Part shown: piece after piece, positions 15,241 to 26,487 of the stretch
Numbering within the stretch: position 1 is the first letter of the stretch
How the letters are laid out: each line of letters begins with the position of its first letter
Origin: Zychaea mexicana
Lineage: Eukaryota > Mucoromycota > Mucoromycetes > Mucorales > Lichtheimiaceae
Reading direction: 5' to 3'
Assembly (NCBI RefSeq): GCF_025766255.1
Contig: NW_026516703.1
Span: 186,001 to 250,000, forward strand
DNA: 64,000 nt
Made by a program: the position numbers and the translations under genes
Notes under the pieces: model-generated
Databases searched by the model: none
What the model saw: only the letters and a program-made list of their open reading frames with translations
What the model was told of the DNA's origin: nothing

Positions 15241-15481
15241 CCATTCAAAACCTTGATGCCACTGATAGTAAAAAAAGAACAAAGTGGAAAAAGTACTTTG
15301 CTTTTTGGTTGCCAAGACCTAAATTGCTTGCCTCTATACACCTCAATTTTCATTGGTTGCTGGGAAAGCAAATATGACTTCACTTTTCTGAGTCACATGT
15401 CAGGCCCAAATATGTCCTTCATTTTGGCATTAGAAATTTTGGCACGGATAGCATGTATGAGGCAAAGAGAATTAATTTTTT

Positions 15482-15533
15482 CGTTTTTGGTAAGTTCCCC
15501 GGAGCACAGCGGAGGGGAACTTTCCCAAAAACG
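15482..15533. repeat. Subterminal hairpin
   Basis: CGTTTTTGG-AAGTTCCCC at 15482-15500 is mirrored by GGGGAACTT-CCAAAAACG at 15514-15533, around a 13-base loop. It lies about 20 bases inside the left TIR and downstream of the transposase stop codon (15653). It could be a transposase site or a transcript-end structure. Neither can be shown here. Confidence 0.6.
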
Positions 15534-18500
15534 AAAAAGAAAAGTTTCAAAATGATACTGTAATAATATGAAAGTAGAGTTTATTGCTGTGTAAAAATAC
15601 TATAAATGTTAATAGCGATATAGGATAACTGATGGTTTATATTGGTAGGCGATTAAATGCTGTTGTCTGGATTGCATTTTGTTTTGTTATTTTTGTTGGT
15701 ACAATCGACTTTACCACAGAAGCTACATTTCGCTGTGCATTTTGTCCTATTGTTTTTGCCTTTACATTTAATGTTGCCACAAACACTACATTTTTTTTGG
15801 TTCTTTTTACGAAGGCCATCAAGTATGCTGTTGCTGGTACCGTTGTTAATGCCACCACTACTGTTGCTACTTGTAGATGTTTGTGGCATCGTGGTAAAAT
15901 TTGGGTTTGTTGAACTGGATGCAGGTGCTAAATATATTTACAATGTCAATATATGCAGATATTTTGATCGACAAATTATTTTTCTTACCCAAAAGTTGTA
16001 ATGGCTGAAGTCTGACAGGAGGATATTCATATTGTGAATGATTTGACGGTGTTGGAGGCATGGAAGGTAATTGCTGTGGAATGTTTGCTAGTAATTGATG
16101 GAACATAAAGGTGGCTAGATTTTGCGTATCGATAAGTGCTGGAGCTGGACAAATTGTAACAGGAGAATCAAGGCGATTTGTAGATGACGAGGCACTTGAG
16201 GTATTATCGTTTTGAATTATGCTTTCAGTACGTGGTGTTTTTGATGGAGATGGGTGTTGTGCAGGTGGTGCTGTTCGTTTACGGGTCGTCGAGTTCAAAT
16301 CGTTGCTCATGTTATCGATGGATTCTTTGTTGTTGTTTTTGGTGCGTATGATATTATCGATTTCTTTCCATTTTGTGTAATGAATAGAAAGCTGCTCTGG
16401 TGTTTTATAAAATATATCTGTGCCGTTAACCTTTTGCGACCAAAGTTTGGTGAATCGAAGAAAGTCTGTGGTTTTGAATCTATGGTTTGGGAACTGGTGA
16501 CGAAGAATTGAATCGAATGTGCTTTTCTCCTTGTCTGTGTGAACTGGTATAATCGCGTGTACTGCTCTTTGACATTCGGCAATATACTTGTATTGAGCTC
16601 CAGTAGCTTGTGCAGTTGAACGATTGATCATGATTAACGTGGCAATATCTAATGACGATGAATTGGTGTGTGAAGTGCTTTGGACTGGTGTTGCTTTGTC
16701 AATGTCGTACAATTCCATTAATGTTGGATCCAAGGGAGATATACCAAATAATTCGCCTGAAGACTTGAGGTAAAGAGAGTGTGTATGTATACCAGGCCCT
16801 CTGTAGCTGCATGGAAGGTTAAGTTTTGTTTCCAAGTTATTGATATGTTGTGATATCCACGGATCGTAATGACCGTCGTGAATACGTCCAAACCTATTTA
16901 ATGTCCCAACCTACAACCAAACATACATGTCAATCCAAACTTTAAATTTTCCGAATGTAAAATGAAATAATAAATTTAAAACTATTACTCACATCGATGT
17001 TGTGCCTAAGTCTATAATCTGCAAGTAGAGCATCAACATATTCAACACTGGCACCAAAAGCTCCAATCGTACGAATCAGGTTCTGGTGTATTCCACCTTC
17101 CAACGAATTTGTACCACGGCTACAGCGATATAGTGTAAGACCATCTTTATCTTGGCCACGGACAAAATAAAAGGGGATACCAGGTGGGTCAGATACGTGG
17201 CCCAGATGAATGGCGGTGAGCACATTTTTTGCTTGCTTCCAATTTTCAAAATCAAATAATGGTCGTCCGGTTCGAGCACAGCGCAATGGTCCATAAGTTT
17301 CAAACAGTTTTTTCACCACAGGGTAGAGATCTTTAGGAGGCGGCACAACACCTAATATAATAATGAAAAATTAGCGTTATTTTAGTGTACATATCTTGTT
17401 AATCTAGTTATTATACATTCAATTTGAAGGTTTAACTTACGCTTTACTCTTTTGAATATCCAATCAGGATCTTCAGCAAGTTTTTTCTCCCATGTTGTTT
17501 CTTTCTTCTCCTCTAGGACCGCTGTTACCAGTCTTTTATCAATTTCATCATATACAAACAATGCATCATGGAATGCCCGTGAGAAAACCTTGGATAATCC
17601 ATGTTTGCGTGAGACCTTTATCATATCCATTAGATGAAAAACATCTTTTAGAATACGAGAGTGTATTGGAGCTGTTTGATTGATAGTGGCCGAGGTACTG
17701 CTGCTGCTTTGATTATCGTTTTGTTGTTGTTGTCGAAATAGTTGCTGGCCGTAGTCTCGGCTTGACACGTCAATATCTCGGTTGATTTCAAGCAAATTTC
17801 CTTCTTCATCAATGATTGGTAAACTTTCATTTTCTTGGTCCAAATCATCATCTTCGTCATCCGATTCCATGGGTGGATTACTTGTGCCTTTATACAAGAA
17901 GTATAATATGTATTAGTAATGTATTAAACATGTATTGTTACAATCCGTTCATTATCTAATATTACCATCTTCTAAATATGTCTGTTGGTTAATCAATTGT
18001 TGAGTCGGTGTAGATATAGCTGAAGTAGCTGGTGATATGGTTGTTGCAGATGGTGATTCTTGTACTGAAACAGTCTTGTAAGTACGAAGCTCAGACACCT
18101 TGACAACTATTTCGAATGGAGGACTCGCAAAATCTCGAAGGCACTTGTCATGTGCATTCACCGTAGCACCGGGCACCAAAGTTCTTTTTATAGTAATGAT
18201 AACGCGGCCTTTTTTAACTTCAACTCCATATAGTCTTTTTTGTTGCTTGGAAATTACACCATATGCGACAGGCTCGTTAAACGACCCAGGATGATACGAT
18301 ACAGGATTACCTAAGAAATATATACAAGCTTTAGTTCCAGCGTTATAAAACTGCTGTTGAATTTCATCTATCCAGTACATTACCCTCATTGTCAGGAGTA
18401 GGATTAGATATACGTATACCGATTACACCATGCCTCTTGACTTCTTCAAAAATTTTTAAAGATGCCCATGCATCGAGAGCGGCATATTCAATTTGGTCTT

Positions 18501-19720
18501 GTGTCAGTTGCGTTGCATCCCAATTACCCAGTCGAATAGAGTCGTCCTTGTTCAATGTATGTTCCAATACAGCTTCACAAATTCCAGCAAGTCCTATACG
18601 TCCATCGGTAATTGCACCTTGACCTTTGCAAAACGCACCTAATTCGAACCCTCCTTTGCAAACAACCTTGAAATCACGTTCGATTTTTTTCAAATCACCA
18701 TTGACATTTCGTCCAAGTTTCATAATCGATTCGCTCTCTAACAACTTGCATAACGAACTCGGTAATTCGTCTAGGTCAGACACACACATTATAAGTGCCG
18801 AGTCGTTGTCTGAAATCTGGATCGTTGCTACCTTTCCTTGTTGGCGGGTCGTAGTGTTGAATGTCCATTCGCAATCAAATCCAATAGCTTGTGAGCTGCC
18901 TTTGTTGATGATGCTATTGGCACTAGTTTCGATATCTTGAGCACCACGGATAGCCTTGATTTCAACGTTGCTTGGAATAGTAAGCAGTGGGTAGGAACGA
19001 GCATTTAACGGCCCCTCGTTTTCTTGTTCAACAACGGGTACCACGTCTTGCAAAAGTGATGGTATAGCTTCTTTAAGAAAACTTTGATCCCCAGTTACGT
19101 TGTTCGTAAAAAATACTTGTGGCTGTGTATATCCGTACAAATCATATGCATGTCGCATGGCGTCAAATGCATATTTGAGATTGGATAGTGCTTTTGTTGG
19201 AACAAGAAACTGAAGTCGGACTTCTGCATATTCGTTCAGGACCGTATATAAAGCAGCAAATACTGGTCGACCGTTAATCTTGTTTATCAGCTTGATTATC
19301 TTAAAGGTATGGTCACCTTTAAGATACACTCCGTCAAGCACTTCCATTTCCTTGTCGATGAGATGTCGTATATCTCGAATAAACGCAGTATAAAATGAAC
19401 GAAAATATTGAGGGGATGGAACGTGACCGGCATACTTGGATCGATCGTCAAATGAAGAGAATGGTGTTATAGTCTCTTGGTTATCAAACATATCATGAAT
19501 TGACTGTTGATCAAAGCGTCGATATACGATATACTGAATATATTGTAAATGTAGCCGTGCGTGTTTTAATCGATGTACTTCACGAATTATCTTGCGGAAT
19601 CTCTTCGAGCCAACGGAATTTTGAACACATGGTCTATAGAGGTCACCAACAACTTTTGATAACCCACTTCGATGAGTCATGTATCCAGGGTATTCGCATT
19701 GCAAGATTTCTGGTAGTTGA

Positions 19721-20040
19721 TGTGGTATGAAAAGTGTTAGGTGAGATATTAGGAGACTGTCGAAGCACTTGAGAATCTTGGTAGGGTCTTTATTCAGGGT
19801 GAATTTGCGATCAAGGGATGTTACTAATGACTTTTGATACCACTATTTGTACTGTTTGAAAGGATTACGTGATGGGTGATTACTAGACGTTTTCCCATGG
19901 GTTAACTTTGTTAAGGAGAATAAGTGGTTATTTTACGATGTCGGGCAATATGGAGAATATTATGCGTGTGAGTCTTGATCCATGAAATTGGTGTAACAAT
20001 GTAATGAGAGGATCGTTATAGCAGTGCTTAGAATACGACA
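19721..20040 (-). repeat. 3' LTR of the gypsy element
   Basis: It is 320 bp, opening TGTGGTATGAAAAGTG and closing GAATACGACA on the plus strand. On the coding strand it follows the polypurine tract. Confidence 0.95.
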
Positions 20041-20053
20041 TCACCCCCCTCCA
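20041..20053 (-). other. Polypurine tract of the gypsy element
   Basis: On the coding strand the bases immediately before the 3' LTR are CTGGAGGGGGGTGA, a purine run of the kind that primes plus-strand DNA synthesis. A near copy (CTGGAGGGGGGGT) occurs at 21670-21682 at the pol frame junction. Confidence 0.7.
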
Positions 20054-20080
20054 GGTAGGAACTACCGGTTGAAGCAGTAT

Positions 20081-21700
20081 TCATTGAGCGCGCTGTTTTT
20101 TGCTTCGACGGTGTTGTTCAGGGTTGGTGGTGGGAGTAGATCTTTTCTTACGCTGTCTTAAATAAGCGGAGGTAGTGTCAGGGACTGAACCAGTGGATCT
20201 GGTGCGATATGCAGAGTTGGTGTTGCCTGTACCGTTAGATCGATTTCCTGTTTTTGTATTCTGTGATTTTAACTGGTGATCGTTTTTTTCTTTGGGACCA
20301 AGTCTTTTCCAATATGTTTCGATTGGCTTTGGAGTAGTGAATTTATCGGGGGTTAGCCATTCATCATGGGTTTCATCATAGTTTTTCCAGCGAACAAGGT
20401 ATTCTCTGTTGCCGGGTGTGCCTTTATGTTTGATTACTTCTAGTACTTCTTTTAGTTCATCTTCAGGGATGACTTCGTCTTGTGATATGAGTTTTAGATC
20501 GGATGGTGGGTAGTTTCTGTCTTCAAGAGTTCCTGTTTCATCCAAGAGGATGTAGGAGCCACCTTTTGTTTTGCGTACTACAGTGTAAGGGCCACGATAT
20601 GCAGGCGATAGTTTAGCAGTGCGTGTCGGGATTCGTACCATGACGTGACTACCCTTGGGAAATTCGACTATGCGATGCGTTTTGTCAAAGTTTTCTTTTT
20701 GCTTTTCTCCTGCTTCTTTGCTTTTTTCGTTAATGGCTGGGAAAACCACTTCCGTCATATGCTTTATTCTTTTGAGCATGTCTTCTTCTGTCAATGGTTG
20801 AGGTGTTTCATTTCGGTAGTCTTTGAATGCGTTCATTTGACGAGCAAACATGAGCGAGAATGGTGTGGAGTTTAACCGTTTTGACACTTTGTTATTTATA
20901 GCGAGTTGAGTGCATGGAACATAGTAGTCCCAGTCTTTGCCTGTTCCTTCTACCATTTTGCGTATGTTGTTCATTGCGACTTGTACATAGCGTTCGGCTA
21001 AGCCATTACCACGAGGATGATACGGTGTGGTGAGACGATGATCGAAGCCAAGGTTTTTTGCGAGTTCTTCCATCGGAAGGTTTTTGAATTCACCTCCGTT
21101 GTCACTGCCTAGTACGCGAGGTACACCGAATACTTTGAAAGTATCGATCAGGGCTTTTACTATAGTGTTTGATTGTTTGTTGGGAAGGCATACCAAGTGG
21201 CAGTACCTGGAGCATACATCGACCATTACCAAAAGGTAATTCATTTGGCTGTCAGTAGTGTGCATGGGTTGACCAAGGTCAATGACCCAGTGGTCTCCAG
21301 GCAGGTAAGCGTAGAGAGGTCTTAATGGATTGAAGCCTTTTTTTATGATGTTATGTTTTTGACAAGCGGGACAAGTTTTTACGTATTCTACTGCGTCATG
21401 TAGCATGTTTGACCAGAATAGTCCATCACGCTGTATGTTCTTTACCATATTTTCACCACCTAGATGTCCAAATAAATGTGCTTTTTGCAATATTTCTTTA
21501 CGATCCTGTTCTGGTGGGATGGTCAGTTCATTTGTTTCTATTTGTTCGCGGGATACACGCATGATGCGTTTTGTTTTCGTTGAGTAGGCAGGATTGTTGA
21601 ATTTGGGTTTGCTTAGAGTGGTTTTATATTGTTCTGATGGTTTGCGAGCTGACTTTTGGTATACTGATGTACCCCCCCTCCAGCTCTTTGGGTTCCTCAA
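20081..21700 (-). CDS. Gypsy integrase with chromodomain, 539 codons
   Basis: The frame opens in the G-run junction and reads the HHCC zinc finger (HLFGHLGGENMVKN ... CPACQ, ~residues 70-118). The integrase core follows, with HWVIDLGQPM, VLGSDNGGEFKN and NGLAERYVQ giving the D, D and E of the DDE triad. A C-terminal chromodomain reads YLVRWKNYDETHDEWLTPDKF region (~415-460), then a basic tail. It lies +1 relative to the upstream gag-pol frame and overlaps it at 21624-21700. Its listed ATG at 21700 falls in the RNase H tail of the upstream frame. It is more likely made as part of a Pol polyprotein through frameshifting, unless a single extra G broke a continuous frame. Confidence 0.9.
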   Translation of the reverse strand: MRNPKSWRGGTSVYQKSARKPSEQYKTTLSKPKFNNPAYSTKTKRIMRVSREQIETNELTIPPEQDRKEILQKAHLFGHLGGENMVKNIQRDGLFWSNMLHDAVEYVKTCPACQKHNIIKKGFNPLRPLYAYLPGDHWVIDLGQPMHTTDSQMNYLLVMVDVCSRYCHLVCLPNKQSNTIVKALIDTFKVFGVPRVLGSDNGGEFKNLPMEELAKNLGFDHRLTTPYHPRGNGLAERYVQVAMNNIRKMVEGTGKDWDYYVPCTQLAINNKVSKRLNSTPFSLMFARQMNAFKDYRNETPQPLTEEDMLKRIKHMTEVVFPAINEKSKEAGEKQKENFDKTHRIVEFPKGSHVMVRIPTRTAKLSPAYRGPYTVVRKTKGGSYILLDETGTLEDRNYPPSDLKLISQDEVIPEDELKEVLEVIKHKGTPGNREYLVRWKNYDETHDEWLTPDKFTTPKPIETYWKRLGPKEKNDHQLKSQNTKTGNRSNGTGNTNSAYRTRSTGSVPDTTSAYLRQRKKRSTPTTNPEQHRRSKKQRAQ

Positions 21701-24700
21701 AAAAGCGGCTAAGAAGATCAGCGAGTACGTTGGCTTCGCCAGGCACGTGAACTATGCGCATGTTGTATTCGAGAAGGAAATCGAGCCAGGAGACTAGCAT
21801 GGGGTTATGATGAATATTCTTCTGTGTGTGAATATACGTGAGAGCTTTGTGATCGACGTATAGTGTAAAGGGATTGTGCCATAAGAATTGGGAAAATTTG
21901 CGGATGCCATATATACAGCTGAGTAACTCACGACGATTAGTAGAGTATGATCTTTCGGATTTGGTGAGCGAGCGAGCCATGAAGCCAGTATAGCGTTTTT
22001 TGCCATCGATTTCTTTGAACAATGCCGCTGCAATGCCCGTGCCACTAGCATCGACGATCAAGTTCATTGGTTTATCGAGCTGAGGGTAATGTAAGAGAGC
22101 GTTGTGCAGTAAGGCTTTTTTGCATGCATTGAAGTGGCGTGTATGTCGTTCTGTCCAGCGGTCGCCAATGATGCCAACATGGCGTAGTTCATCCAGCGGT
22201 GCTAAAAGAGTACCTGCGTAGACGAGATGATCGCGGAAGAAGTTGATGAGGCCACAGAATTTTTGTACTTCATGACCTGTTTTGGGTATAGGCCAGCTGT
22301 TGATGTTTGATAGTTTTCGGGTATCAAGAGATACGCCTTTACTAGAGATGCAGAAACCTAGCAAGTAGACGCTTGTTTGGGCAAATGAGCATTTGTGGCT
22401 GCTTAGAATTAATTTTGCGTCTGTAAGTTTTTTAATTACGTCGATCACCGTTTGCTGGTGTGTGGCAAGATCAGGTCCATGTATGACGATATCGTCAATA
22501 AAAAATTGGACGTGCTTCATATTATATAAGAGTGTGGCAATGGTTTTCTGTGCTACCGCACTAAGATGTTTGACACCGAACGGTGCTTTTTGAAAAGAAT
22601 ATTGCATGCCTTTGTGCGTGAATGTCAGTTTGTGCTGATCGGGTTCATGTACCGGAAAGCGGTGAAACATTTGGCGAATGTCCAATGTGGTAAAGACAAC
22701 GGAACCAGACAGGGAGTTGAAAATGTCTTCTTTGATTAAAGGAAGAGGAAATTTCTCATCAGGCAGCATACTGTTTAGGTGACGGGGGTCAAGGCAGACG
22801 CGTTTGCCTGTTTTATTGCCATGCTCGTCTTTTTTGTCAGCCAGCAATAGAGGGAAATTCCATGCACAATTCGTGGGCGCTCTTTTGATAATTTTTTCAT
22901 CGAGCCAGCCTTGTACTGTTTCATCGACAATGTGTTGGTCAGCGTAAGGAATGCGGTATTGTCTTTGGTTGACAGCCGCGCCTTCTGGTGTTTTTAAATA
23001 TACGATGGATTCAGGAACAGTACAGGCTGATGTTTTGGAAATGTTCTGGTTTTCATCGAGAAAGGGCTGTATGGCTTGAAGGAATTTGTTGCGTTCTTCA
23101 GGTGTGCCATATGGAGAGTTGTTTGGTGTTGGTACATCTTTACCGCTCTCCAGGTCAATTTTCTTTTCGGTGGAATTATCTATTTCATCCCATTTATGGG
23201 CAACGCCCTGTAGGAAGATTCCGAGTTTAGGCAAAAGGTCTGAGCCAATGTATAGTTCGATATTGTCTTCCAGTTCCATTACTTCAAACGCGTGTGATGT
23301 GTGTAACCCATTATATTTTATTTGTTTGGTTTCGGTGATTCCGATGCGGTCAATATACATGTTTTTTGCAGCTAAGTGTAGTTTGCCCTTTGCAGGCGAA
23401 TACGACCATGAATGTTTATTGATGAGTTTGATACTTATAGCAGACGCTTCACAACCAGTATCTATATAGCCCATGAATTTCTTGTTTTCTATTAAGATAG
23501 GTGTATATAGAGAATATGGTTTGTCTGTGAGTAGCTCGTTTGGAGGGTCACGTTTGGAGGATCTGATAGTTTTGTTTGTGTTTTGCTTACAGTGTTCGTT
23601 TTCTTTTGCGAATTCGAGGTCGACCATGTCTTCGACAAGGTCGTCAAGCTCGGAATCGCTGGCGTTTCCGCCGTTGTTTGATTGTTCTGTGCGCGTGACT
23701 GCGCGAATTCTTGGACCTGAGGAGGCGCCGGTGTTGCTGTTGTTATTGCTGCTGCTTTCTTTCGCCTTGTGTTCGTAGAATTCTGGGCATTTGTGTCCAA
23801 CTGACCATGGCTTCTTGCACCATTTACAATTGTTGGTGGCAGTCATTTTGCCCAATTTTTTGCACTCGGCGGACGAATGATGAGCGCTGGGCCCATGGTA
23901 TGAACAACCAACAGGACAGTGACTTTGCGAGCCTGCGGGTGTGTTTGATGAGTTTGTGTGTGTGCGGCGACGTGAGTGTGCGCGCGAGGAGGAATCCTCT
24001 GCAGCGTACGACTGCTGGTGAGTGCGCTTGTACACGGACACGGCTTGGGCGATCTCTAGGGCGGCAGAGACGGACTTCGGCAACTTCTTTCCTTTGCGGC
24101 CGTGCCAGGCGACCAACGTGTTTTCGCGAATGTGCGGCAGTAGCGAGGCCAGGAAGCGCAGGGCTAATTGTTGGCTATCCGTTATTTCTGCCTCGCGGGC
24201 AGCGGCGAGGAACCTCGTACCATAGTCGAGCGTACTTTCGTTGCTGCGCATGGTCATCGTGAACACCTCGGTGGCCTTGGCAATGATTTGATCAGATGAC
24301 TCGAAGTGATGAAGGAATGTTTTCTTGGCCTTTTTCCATGACAGTCCCTTGCCCTTGAGCTCTCTTTCAACCCAGGCGTCATGGTCGTGGTGAATGGCGA
24401 GGGGGAGCCACTTTTCCCAGTCGCGGTCCAGATCACCTTCCATGGCGGACAATGCGAGCTCGAAGGTACGAGCGAAATGGCTTGGTGAGCTAAATACTTC
24501 CTTGTTGTGGCGCCAAATATGCGCACCGGAGAGCTGGAATACGGGTAAGTCCTTGTATGTCATTCGGCACGTGGGTTTCTTCTGCGTTGGTGCCTGTTCT
24601 GTTTCCTTGCCAGGTCGGTTATCCGCAGTCAGGTCCTTCAGGAGGTCTTGGAAGCGGTGGAGGTTTGCTTGAGCTTTTTTGATCCGAGAAGTCAGGGTCT

Positions 24701-24980
24701 TGCGCTCTTCATCGGCATCGTTCTTGGTGAGGGCGTGTGCGAGGCTGATGCCGAGTTCGCCAATGCGTTTCTTGTAGAAGTTGATGGACTTCTCGAAGAC
24801 CACTTGGGGGTCGGCGTGCTCGGACTCCAGCGAACCTTGAAGATCGAGCTCTTGGTACTCGACGCCTTCCATTTCCGAGTTAGCTTGGGCCGGCGAGGAT
24901 GTTTGTTCTTGGTTGATTTGGGGTTCATCGTCGGCACGGGGAGAAGAGGGGGTGGAGGTTTGTTGGTTGCTGTTGTTCAT
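21624..24980 (-). CDS. Gypsy gag-protease-reverse transcriptase-RNase H polyprotein, 1118 aa
   Basis: It starts at ATG 24980, 26 bases after the 5' LTR, and stops at 21624. The Gag-like part (~1-480) has a Cys/His region near 360-410 (CKWCKKPWSVGHKCPEF). The aspartic protease active site is at ~507 (YIDTGCEAS, with DTG). RT contains VFTTLDIRQMFHRF and, at ~827, the catalytic FFIDDIVIHG (an F-x-DD variant of YxDD). RNase H begins near 975 (LIVDASGTGIAAAL) and ends before GEANVLADLLSRF. The final residues past the G-run (EGGYISIPK...) are out of frame with the integrase. Everything needed up to RNase H is intact. Confidence 0.93.
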   Translation of the reverse strand: MNNSNQQTSTPSSPRADDEPQINQEQTSSPAQANSEMEGVEYQELDLQGSLESEHADPQVVFEKSINFYKKRIGELGISLAHALTKNDADEERKTLTSRIKKAQANLHRFQDLLKDLTADNRPGKETEQAPTQKKPTCRMTYKDLPVFQLSGAHIWRHNKEVFSSPSHFARTFELALSAMEGDLDRDWEKWLPLAIHHDHDAWVERELKGKGLSWKKAKKTFLHHFESSDQIIAKATEVFTMTMRSNESTLDYGTRFLAAAREAEITDSQQLALRFLASLLPHIRENTLVAWHGRKGKKLPKSVSAALEIAQAVSVYKRTHQQSYAAEDSSSRAHSRRRTHTNSSNTPAGSQSHCPVGCSYHGPSAHHSSAECKKLGKMTATNNCKWCKKPWSVGHKCPEFYEHKAKESSSNNNSNTGASSGPRIRAVTRTEQSNNGGNASDSELDDLVEDMVDLEFAKENEHCKQNTNKTIRSSKRDPPNELLTDKPYSLYTPILIENKKFMGYIDTGCEASAISIKLINKHSWSYSPAKGKLHLAAKNMYIDRIGITETKQIKYNGLHTSHAFEVMELEDNIELYIGSDLLPKLGIFLQGVAHKWDEIDNSTEKKIDLESGKDVPTPNNSPYGTPEERNKFLQAIQPFLDENQNISKTSACTVPESIVYLKTPEGAAVNQRQYRIPYADQHIVDETVQGWLDEKIIKRAPTNCAWNFPLLLADKKDEHGNKTGKRVCLDPRHLNSMLPDEKFPLPLIKEDIFNSLSGSVVFTTLDIRQMFHRFPVHEPDQHKLTFTHKGMQYSFQKAPFGVKHLSAVAQKTIATLLYNMKHVQFFIDDIVIHGPDLATHQQTVIDVIKKLTDAKLILSSHKCSFAQTSVYLLGFCISSKGVSLDTRKLSNINSWPIPKTGHEVQKFCGLINFFRDHLVYAGTLLAPLDELRHVGIIGDRWTERHTRHFNACKKALLHNALLHYPQLDKPMNLIVDASGTGIAAALFKEIDGKKRYTGFMARSLTKSERSYSTNRRELLSCIYGIRKFSQFLWHNPFTLYVDHKALTYIHTQKNIHHNPMLVSWLDFLLEYNMRIVHVPGEANVLADLLSRFFEEPKELEGGYISIPKVSSQTIRTI
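21670..21682 (-). promoter_or_regulatory. G7 frame junction and candidate central polypurine tract
   Basis: On the coding strand CTGGAGGGGGGGT sits where the RNase H frame must shift +1 into the integrase frame. It differs from the 3' polypurine tract by one extra G. It may be a slippery site, a central plus-strand primer, or both. Confidence 0.4.
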
Positions 24981-25006
24981 GGTAGATAATTCAAGTGAAA
25001 AAAAAA

Positions 25007-25327
25007 TGTGGTATGAAAAGTGTTAGGTGAGATATTAGGAGACTGTCGAAGCACTTGAGAATCTTGGTAGGGTCTTTATTCAGGGTGAATTTGCGATCAA
25101 GGGATGTTACTAATGACTTTTGATACCACTATTTGTACTGTTTGAAAGGATTACGTGATGGGTGATTACTAGACGTTTTCCCATGGGTTAACTTTGTTAA
25201 GGAGAATAAGTGGTTATTTTACGATGTCGGGCAATATGGAGAATATTATGCGTGTGAGTCTTGATCCATGAAATTGGTGTAACAATGTATATGAGAGGAT
25301 CGTTATAGCAGTGCTTAGAATACGACA
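25007..25327 (-). repeat. 5' LTR of the gypsy element
   Basis: It is 321 bp and identical to the 3' LTR apart from a one-base indel in GTATATGAG. On the coding strand it ends CATACCACA, directly followed by a T-run and CACTTGAATTATCTACC, then the gag ATG. Confidence 0.95.
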
Positions 25328-26487
25328 GTTGACGGATTATTTCTGGGTCGTTACTGATATAACTCTTTTTGCAACTCGGTGTGTGGCACTGGTAACGATA
25401 CCCCATAATATAAAAGCAGCTAAACAATTTAACTTAGGACAGAACTCTTTGATAACTAAGCATATCACATATATGGTGCCAAAATAATCGCTATTCAATC
25501 GTTACCTATCAATGTCTATTACTCTGCGCGCAAAAGGAGTCTTTGTATAACCGTTGTTTCCGAGAGTTACTTTGCAACCTGGGCACTTTAGTTTATTCTT
25601 AAAAAACTTTTGGAGCAGAAGATGAGGGAACCATAGAAACACACGTGGAAGATACAAGCTGCTTGGATCGATTTTTTTTCCATCCATCAATGCAAAGAAA
25701 GGAGACTTTGGGTGAACCCAAAATGTGCCGTTGTGATATTCTTGAGGCATATTATCCTGTTTATCGTTGTTCATGTCATCTCGTATGCGATCTTGAAGGC
25801 CAAAAAATTACTTTTCAAGTATACTGTCTTGATCTTCGCCTTCACGTTCGTCTTCCTCTGGAATCGGTGTATCTGCCTCTTCAGTCTCATCATCATCATC
25901 ATCTCCAGTAGTGTCGATGTTGTTGCTTGTATTCGAGTCAACTTCTAGTAGCCCACGAATACTTGCTAATTCATCGACTTCAGCTGGTTCTTCCAAAGGC
26001 GTTCTGGGTAGCTCGGCAGACGTGCGTTCGTCGTTGCTGTTGCTGGTGTCGTTCCTGAAATCACTTGTTGCTGAATCAGTGAAATCTTGTGCGAAACAAA
26101 GCACAGACTGCCCTTGAGGTAAAGATTGCGAGTTTTTGGGTTTTCTTCCAGCATTAGGATTTTTTCCTCCTTTCTTTCTTCCAGGTTTTTTAAAATTGAA
26201 CATTTTGACACTGTTGACACGGCCTTTGACAGTAGTAGTATTAGAAGAGATGAAACACTCTCGCCATGCACATGCAGATTGTTTATTTAGATCCCAGCAA
26301 CAGTGTCATAGTCAAAATTTATTGGCCAGCCCAAAACGTCATGGTTGATTTTTATTGGACAGTGCTGCCTCATCCACACTACCCGTGCCGAAATTTTTAT
26401 GATTTCGCAAGAGGGGTGATTGTAGGAGAAAATTTATATGAAAAGAATATTGGTATATACAATAGAAGACGACAAATGTAAATCAAA

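Follow-up and report, generated by a model that had tools for sequence, protein, structure and literature searches.

A stretch of 64,000 nucleotides of the Zychaea mexicana genome (the window) carries a DNA transposon whose one gene encodes, as the initial annotation had proposed, a DDE transposase combined with a WRN-like DEDDy 3'-5' exonuclease; the PF01612 match, the family alignment, the predicted fold and the empty insertion sites all support this reading. Kinship of the transposon with Dada appears nearly certain, and the whole of the evidence is best explained by a probable variant within the Dada clade, with an 8-bp stagger and an exonuclease in the catalytic core.

Transposon ends, empty sites and decay of the window copy

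The left terminal inverted repeat, GGCACGGATAGCATGTATGAGGCA, agrees with the reverse complement of the right end, GGCACGGGTAGTGTGGATGAGGCA, at 20 of 24 positions, and an exact 8-bp target-site duplication, GAAATTTT, flanks the transposon, which spans 15441-26389 with a nested retrotransposon included (Table 1). When the end pattern was searched in the 50.3-Mb genome with up to three mismatches, 12 matches were returned, and the reversed control pattern gave none. The joined flanks (300 bp, with the 8 bp kept once) align ungapped over 275 bp to two further loci of the same contig, with identities of 99.3% and 98.9% and GAAATTTT present once, showing the target as it was, intact, before insertion. 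The inverted ends and duplication described in the initial annotation were thereby confirmed, and further copies with matching ends and duplication size, the check it had set beforehand, were found, which favours a transposon. That a host exonuclease gene lies by chance between matching ends is a negligible prospect; PF01612 matches outside the transposase matches would be in its favour, but it is rejected because empty sites and further copies exist, the latter forming a multi-copy family with related ends and duplications.

The same annotation placed one 8-exon gene between these ends. A Ty3/gypsy-type LTR element is nested within, with LTRs identical at 321 of 322 positions, a 5-bp duplication (GTTGA), and frames of 1132 and 556 amino acids read as gag-pol by eye. 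Since this is a later insertion, the transposon proper measures 5,337 bp. The gene motifs named earlier are likewise present, but the reading frame is not whole: exon 1 contains an in-frame TAA where the C19, C291 and C16 copies have Tyr, and the second catalytic position reads TNN, an Asp-to-Asn change, against TD in 10 of 10 other copies compared. The window copy is therefore dead, its gene being split by the gypsy element, stopped in exon 1 and altered at the second Asp. A very short intron replacing the stop was ruled out by the Tyr in the same three copies; other stops or frame breaks lie near this Tyr in C19 and C291, and none within that match in C16.

Table 1. Positions in the window of the transposon, its gene and the nested retrotransposon
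Feature	Position	Strand	Basis
Target-site duplication GAAATTTT, left	15433..15440	.	sequence; single in empty site
Left terminal inverted repeat	15441..15464	+	end comparison, genome pattern search
C-terminal double Cys cluster (CxxC-x4-C-x-G-...-C, twice)	15674..15793	-	motif in sequence
Exon region after catalytic core (GTLNRFGR...), open frame, provisional exon edges	15867..16910	-	frames
Exon region with third catalytic residue, E of RGTNSLEGG (17092-17118)	16942..17370	-	motif, alignment
Exon region with DxxH motif (ILKDVFH, 17634-17660)	17385..17912	-	motif, alignment
Exon region after exonuclease	17955..18422	-	order matches beta-rich domain, residues 482-557 of related copy's model
DEDDy 3'-5' exonuclease domain (PF01612), all five catalytic residues: FDCEW (18865-18882), NVNGD (18694-18714), YAALDAW (18466-18486)	18439..18930	-	profile match, motifs
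DDE core, first part	19096..19716	-	first Asp in GDHTFK (19300-19317); TNN (19096-19113)
GTTGA duplication of nested retrotransposon, left	19716..19720	.	sequence comparison
Nested Ty3/gypsy-type LTR retrotransposon, outside transposon proper	19721..25327	-	LTRs 19721-20040 and 25007-25327
GTTGA duplication of nested retrotransposon, right	25328..25332	.	sequence comparison
N-terminal CCCC zinc motif, second half (YRYQCHTPSC)	25371..25400	-	motif in sequence
First exon: start Met (26203), CPGC (first half of CCCC motif)	25505..26203	-	frames, motif
In-frame stop codon in exon 1, window copy	25808..25810	-	comparison with C19, C291 and C16
Right terminal inverted repeat	26366..26389	-	end comparison, genome pattern search
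Target-site duplication GAAATTTT, right	26390..26397	.	sequence

Transposase and nested exonuclease

The predicted gene product would be a single polypeptide some 1,300 residues long, whose N-terminal part is a CCCC zinc region (Pfam DUF6729) and whose RNase H-like core contains D, D, DxxH and E; the exonuclease interrupts the sequence of this core after the second D and before DxxH. In the first exon DUF6729 (PF20499) scores 22.1 bits, under its cut-off of 27, and the exon region after the core has no Pfam match above its cut-off. The RGTNSLEGG block and the C-terminal double Cys cluster of the initial annotation are both in place, the cluster recurring in the C19 copy and partially in C291 and C102. 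Alignment A3 has 54 rows, whose identity to its first row ranges over 28-66%, and its non-gap rows keep the catalytic residues almost throughout (D 48/49, D 51/52, E 39/41; in DxxH, D 45/47 and H 47/48).

The annotated exonuclease proved complete, with all three DEDDy motifs located and a PF01612 match of 73.8 bits (cut-off 23.6). Its five catalytic residues are all kept in 42 of the 54 rows, and retention across such a range of identity speaks for selection on activity. Three relatives (P0009, P0031, P0047) have lost all five while retaining D, D, DxxH and E, and two Apophysomyces proteins (P0010, P0061) have no exonuclease domain between TDN and DxxH, for which a gene-model error may be responsible. 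In the predicted structure of a related copy the exonuclease is shown as an insertion within the transposase fold, and WRN exonuclease is the closest solved relative of the domain; the Foldseek and VIA lists consist mostly of exonucleases and are hardly a test of alternative folds in the remainder of the model. The structural match to ISCth4 (6xgx), of the IS256 group, has an rmsd of 8.0 at 11% identity, and this group differs in being bacterial and lacking the exonuclease insertion. Single-sequence prediction (pLDDT 33.1) was of no use. PF01612 also matches places in the genome outside the transposase matches, for instance C255:218545 and C24:220717.

Relationship to Dada and other superfamilies

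The initial annotation knew of no named superfamily with this layout; however, Kojima and Jurka 2013 (PMC3706591) report that Dada transposases of Laccaria bicolor and Ectocarpus siliculosus carry a DEDDy exonuclease after the second Asp and before DxxH, and already propose that the Dada exonuclease processes cleaved 3' ends. A literature search with most subscription journals outside its scope gave no other description of the layout among the listed matches that were examined (passages of PMC12730594, PMC4482050, PMC9587614 and PMC8869645). By description, Dada-1_LB, Dada-2_LB and Dada-1_ES share with the window family the DDE core with DxxH, the position of the exonuclease, the CCCC motif and introns, and the length of the window transposon falls within the 4.7-11 kb given for Dada in the same text. 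The names of these three families give no target, and all Dada with clearly definable ends are stated there to sit in small RNA genes. Against this description, the window family has inverted ends, 8-bp duplications and varied sites.

Profile comparison (hhalign) with 16 animal Dada-type proteins, which count as Dada by some published spacings and not by others, gave an E-value of 1.2e-33 over the catalytic core and the zinc region, with the exonuclease opposite a gap. Of the spacings of Dada-U6_DR, the N-terminal C-x4-C-x34-C-x2-C is exact in only 12 of 120 animal proteins and the second-Asp-to-Glu distance of 176 occurs in two of the 78 measurable ones, and both counts argue against calling these animal proteins Dada. 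With the exonuclease cut out, a profile search returned 67 proteins, none bearing an animal name. The N-terminal CCCC motif, a Dada feature, is present in the window (CPGC...CHTPSC); a loose CCCC pattern is found in 14 of 103 family proteins, many being fragments or starting downstream of the motif, and DUF6729 in 40 of 54 family members and all five animal proteins scanned. The C-terminal CCHC of Dada (C-x2-C-x9-H-x8-C) occurs in none of the 103, many of them fragments, and in its place a CxxC-x4-C...C cluster is seen in six by one pattern. Fish Dada (Dada-U6, U1, tRNA) have the homologous core and DUF6729 zinc region in common with the window family, but a scan of five animal proteins found no exonuclease, and the published description (PMC3706591) gives fish Dada a C-terminal CCHC and insertion in snRNA and tRNA genes with 6-7-bp duplications, the U6 and U1 families lacking terminal inverted repeats.

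A separate superfamily sharing an ancestor with Dada, with GGC ends, 8-bp duplications, scattered targets and the exonuclease within the core, is conceivable but somewhat doubtful. Four features depart from the published Dada description, namely the inverted ends, the 8-bp duplications in place of 6-7-bp ones, the absence of recognised small-RNA-gene targets and the lack of an exact C-terminal CCHC, and a catalytic-core tree separates nine fish rows (of 16 offered, seven being left uncut by the pattern) from 31 family rows (30 of the 54 in A3 plus C231, the others being too short) with a branch support of 100/100. However, the exonuclease sits where that description puts it in Laccaria and Ectocarpus, and the profile match to animal Dada-type proteins is strong over both core and zinc region. 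Several rows of the tree are on long branches and it includes no further Dada; the split is not necessarily a superfamily border. The fuller version, in which such a superfamily chooses sites freely and a WRN-type exonuclease trims the donor break and removes the excision footprint, seems unlikely. If the separation were true, sister lineages without the exonuclease would serve as natural controls.

The 8-bp duplication could also suggest a KDZ (Zisupton), hAT, P or Mutator element, since Zisupton likewise makes 8-bp duplications, and PMC3706591 gives about 8 bp for P and hAT and lists C/DxxH as common to hAT, P, Mutator and Kolobok. Such an origin is very improbable: a Pfam scan of 54 members at E 0.001 found only PF01612 (48), PF20499 (40), PF02902 (1) and PF20020 (1), with no family of those groups and no KDZ or CxC domain, so that, of the profiles the initial annotation had named, MULE, hAT and KDZ were all absent and the exonuclease matched. 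KolobokD is likewise described as encoding a 3'-5' exonuclease, which differs in being DEDDh (TREX-like), and Kolobok duplications are TTAA (PMC9587614).

Possible role of the exonuclease

In the Dada variant favoured here, the transposase would pair the GGC... ends, cut, and join the transposon to its target at positions staggered by 8 bp, and the exonuclease of the same protein might trim the 3' ends that the break leaves on the donor flanks, any element-derived 3' tail included, tidying the gap for end joining; it would have to spare the element's own 3' ends because joining needs them. We infer this trimming role tentatively, several relatives being without the exonuclease. That the domain has no action on DNA ends in transposition, being a structural spacer or a domain once acquired and now tolerated, is quite unlikely: the transposase residues are indeed kept in relatives whose exonuclease is dead or missing, but the retention of all five residues in most A3 rows and the closeness to WRN exonuclease argue against it.

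The nesting of an exonuclease in a transposase was published in 2013, for families whose targets PMC3706591 leaves unnamed. In the present lineage it occurs together with well-defined ends, duplications of 8 bp, empty sites and copies identical over 5 kb, which makes both excision and the contribution of the exonuclease testable, with the relatives that have a dead or missing exonuclease as natural comparisons. The findings also suggest that small RNA genes are not a necessary target of Dada-type transposases, and that DUF6729, an uncharacterised Pfam domain, is the zinc region of such proteins.

The family in the Z. mexicana genome

A literature search for Zychaea and transposable elements found no paper. 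The genome holds at least four subfamilies of the transposon. Of the 15 copies in which both ends were located, 12 are flanked by exact 8-bp duplications, a count that leaves out C226 (which runs off its contig), C43, C73, C87, C179, C295 and the second C267 copy; the duplication is inexact in C102 (7/8) and C240 (6/8) and absent in C267. In the sequence examined, no second end was found for C241 (a 48-kb copy), C291, C212, C234 and C293. Terminal inverted repeats match at 17 of 24 positions in C16 and subfamily B, at 17 of 25 in subfamily C, and weakly (12-13 of 24) in subfamily D. The insertion sites examined are varied, several being AT-rich, and no small RNA gene was recognised among them: neither tRNAs nor Rfam matches were found near 11 of the 12 copies with exact duplications (all but C16) or in six empty-site loci of three insertions, and the same genome gave 55 tRNA matches (63 of 1904 candidates scored). 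Two copies of one sister subfamily are identical over 5,039 bp, and close relatives of the window copy thus show signs of recent movement.

Insertion and decay of the window copy

Within the 50.3-Mb, 305-contig assembly, the transposon in the window (the window copy) has inverted ends identical at 20 of 24 positions and an exact GAAATTTT duplication on both sides of them, in agreement with the initial annotation. Its flanks, when joined with a single GAAATTTT (300 bp), align ungapped over 275 bp at two further positions of this contig, with 99.3% and 98.9% identity, and these empty sites are the strongest evidence for the insertion. The end pattern, with up to three mismatches allowed, has 12 matches genome-wide versus 0 for a reversed control pattern. 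The flank is part of a repeat that occurs several times, in both orientations, along this contig (C241); one of its copies ends 73 bases before the window start.

The window copy is dead, with at least three separate defects: a retrotransposon interrupts it; exon 1 carries an in-frame stop at a position held by Tyr in the copies on contigs C19, C291 and C16; and the second catalytic residue is Asn, versus Asp in 10 of 10 other copies compared. The nested Ty3/gypsy-type LTR retrotransposon is young and has nearly identical LTRs; after its subtraction the transposon measures 5,337 bp.

Transposon copies (named by contig), their 8-bp target duplications, and other features
Feature	Location	Duplication	Remark
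Subfamily A	window copy, 15441-26389	GAAATTTT
Subfamily A	C19	GGCAAAAT
Subfamily A	C16	GAAATCTT
Subfamily A	C102		7/8
Subfamily B	C76	AAGAAGTG
Subfamily B	C223	GTTTTTTT
Subfamily B	C33	CCATTTGG
Subfamily B	C240		6/8
Subfamily C	C231	AAAATTTT
Subfamily C	C190	CCAGTATG
Subfamily C	C223, second copy	AGGCTTCT
Subfamily C	C242	AATATAGG
Subfamily D	C58	GAAATTTC
Subfamily D	C35	GAATTTAC
Subfamily D	C267, at 121 kb		end altered, no duplication
Nested Ty3/gypsy-type LTR element	19721-25327	GTTGA	LTRs identical in 321/322 columns
Flank repeat	C241:169809-170083		contig coordinates, outside window
Flank repeat	C241:185654-185928		contig coordinates, outside window
Flank repeat	C241:154692-154815		contig coordinates, outside window

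Subfamilies and target sites

A protein search with the core yielded at least 118 stretches in 63 clusters on 50 contigs (split at gaps above 2.5 kb; 98 of 137 candidate matches scored), many clusters being fragments. Ends could be defined for four subfamilies and start with GGC in each, and exact 8-bp duplications flank 12 of the 15 copies with both ends located, an outcome in favour of a transposon under the initial annotation's own refutation test. Inverted-end similarity is 17/24 in C16 and subfamily B, 17/25 in subfamily C and just 12-13/24 in subfamily D. Subfamily B copies are 97-99% identical across 5.2 kb, and C231 and C190 show zero differences over 5,039 bp. One family protein, P0013 (BDB00DRAFT_877589), is listed for Zychaea mexicana (Mucorales).

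For the C33 copy, an ungapped empty site was located on C266 (300 bp, 96.3%; 7 of 8 duplicated bases agree), with two further empty sites at 71%. The C223 copy sits in a repeat, and its junction is spanned by 40 of the 46 matches listed, three of them checked by alignment. This repeat (L073, L074, L075) has at least 40 copies, of about 225 bp in the matches listed. No long shared motif was seen at insertion sites. Scans for tRNA and Rfam families gave no match around 11 of the 12 copies with exact duplications (all except C16), nor at six empty-site loci of three insertions, which are the better test for RNA genes because an inserted copy would itself split such a gene; the Rfam model recovered tRNA genes of this genome (at least 55 matches).

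Relation to Dada

The initial annotation knew of no named superfamily with this layout; however, PMC3706591 describes it for Dada families of Laccaria and Ectocarpus, in which a DEDDy exonuclease lies between second Asp and DxxH and is proposed to process cleaved 3' ends. The same source gives Dada transposases as DDE proteins with DxxH, an N-terminal CCCC and a C-terminal CCHC motif, 6-7-bp duplications, and U6 and U1 families lacking terminal inverted repeats; wherever the ends of a family can be clearly defined, its insertions are in snRNA and tRNA genes. The word "exonuclease" is absent from the accessible portion of a later Dada paper (PMC8869645).

A query with fish-type sequence found 692 proteins, and the 120 listed are mostly from fish, with some from lancelet. 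Among these 120, the spacing of Dada-U6_DR from first to second Asp (68 residues) recurs in 57 of 75 measurable proteins and its C-x2-C-x9-H-x8-C motif in 67, while its exact N-terminal zinc spacing is found in just 12 and its second-Asp-to-Glu distance of 176 residues in 2 of the 78 measurable. An alignment of sixteen of these proteins (14 fish, 2 lancelet) matched a 19-sequence family alignment at E 1.2e-33, the exonuclease lying opposite a gap between second Asp and DxxH, and kinship to Dada, as judged against these fish and lancelet proteins, is therefore well supported. The family nevertheless departs from published Dada in four tested features, namely the length of its duplications, its inverted ends, its choice of targets and the exact C-terminal motif, and is therefore called a Dada-clade variant rather than plain Dada. 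In the parts available, 8-bp duplications are also reported for Zisupton (PMC12730594), and KolobokD carries an exonuclease too, but of a different kind (PMC9587614).

The exonuclease-in-transposase layout is already known and the Dada kinship is clear; defined ends, 8-bp duplications at free sites, empty sites, difference-free copies, the predicted nested fold and repeated exonuclease loss were not found in the portions available of PMC3706591, PMC12730594, PMC4482050, PMC9587614 and PMC8869645.

Protein layout and the exonuclease

Among 54 aligned family members, Pfam searches confirmed the exonuclease of the initial annotation (PF01612 in 48) and found PF20499 (DUF6729) in 40, with no hAT, MULE, KDZ or P domain in any. 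PF20499 seems to correspond to the zinc region in transposases of the Dada type; its profile matches nearly full-length in five animal proteins. The protein runs from a CCCC zinc motif through first Asp (GDHTF), second Asp (TDN), exonuclease, beta-rich domain, disordered linker, DxxH (KDxFH) and Glu (RGTNSLEGG) to a Cys-rich tail. The predicted beta-rich domain (residues 482-557 of model mf229a8539475, a related copy) is modelled confidently between exonuclease and linker.

All five exonuclease residues are present in 42 of the 54 rows; two rows lack the domain, two are truncated and eight deviate, including P0009, P0031 and P0047, which retain none of the five and keep the transposase residues. 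Individual sequences inspected were those of these three and of P0010, P0011, P0054 and P0061; the Apophysomyces proteins P0010 and P0061 have no exonuclease between TDN and DxxH. The tree of the catalytic core joins P0009 to P0047 (100/100) and P0010 to P0017 (98/90), and places P0031 elsewhere (85/79). The separate positions of P0009/P0047, P0010 and P0031 therefore suggest at least three losses, though the deletions could be gene-model errors, and such relatives suggest that the exonuclease is dispensable in some lineages.

The DDE core, given its residues and kinship, is expected to cleave the element ends and join them to the target with an 8-bp stagger. Left unrestrained, a 3'-5' exonuclease would degrade the 3' ends of the element itself, so that its likely substrate would be the 3' terminus of the flanking donor DNA, including any element-derived tail; such trimming would ease end joining, and we infer it in agreement with the 2013 suggestion on Dada.

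P0070, annotated in Plasmodiophora brassicae, outside Fungi, is a relative with exonuclease and DUF6729. Peptidase_C48 matched one of the 54 members. By eye, the C-terminus of P0038 (EukProt entry Partr_v1, which we take to be Paraphelidium) resembles an Ulp1-type protease.
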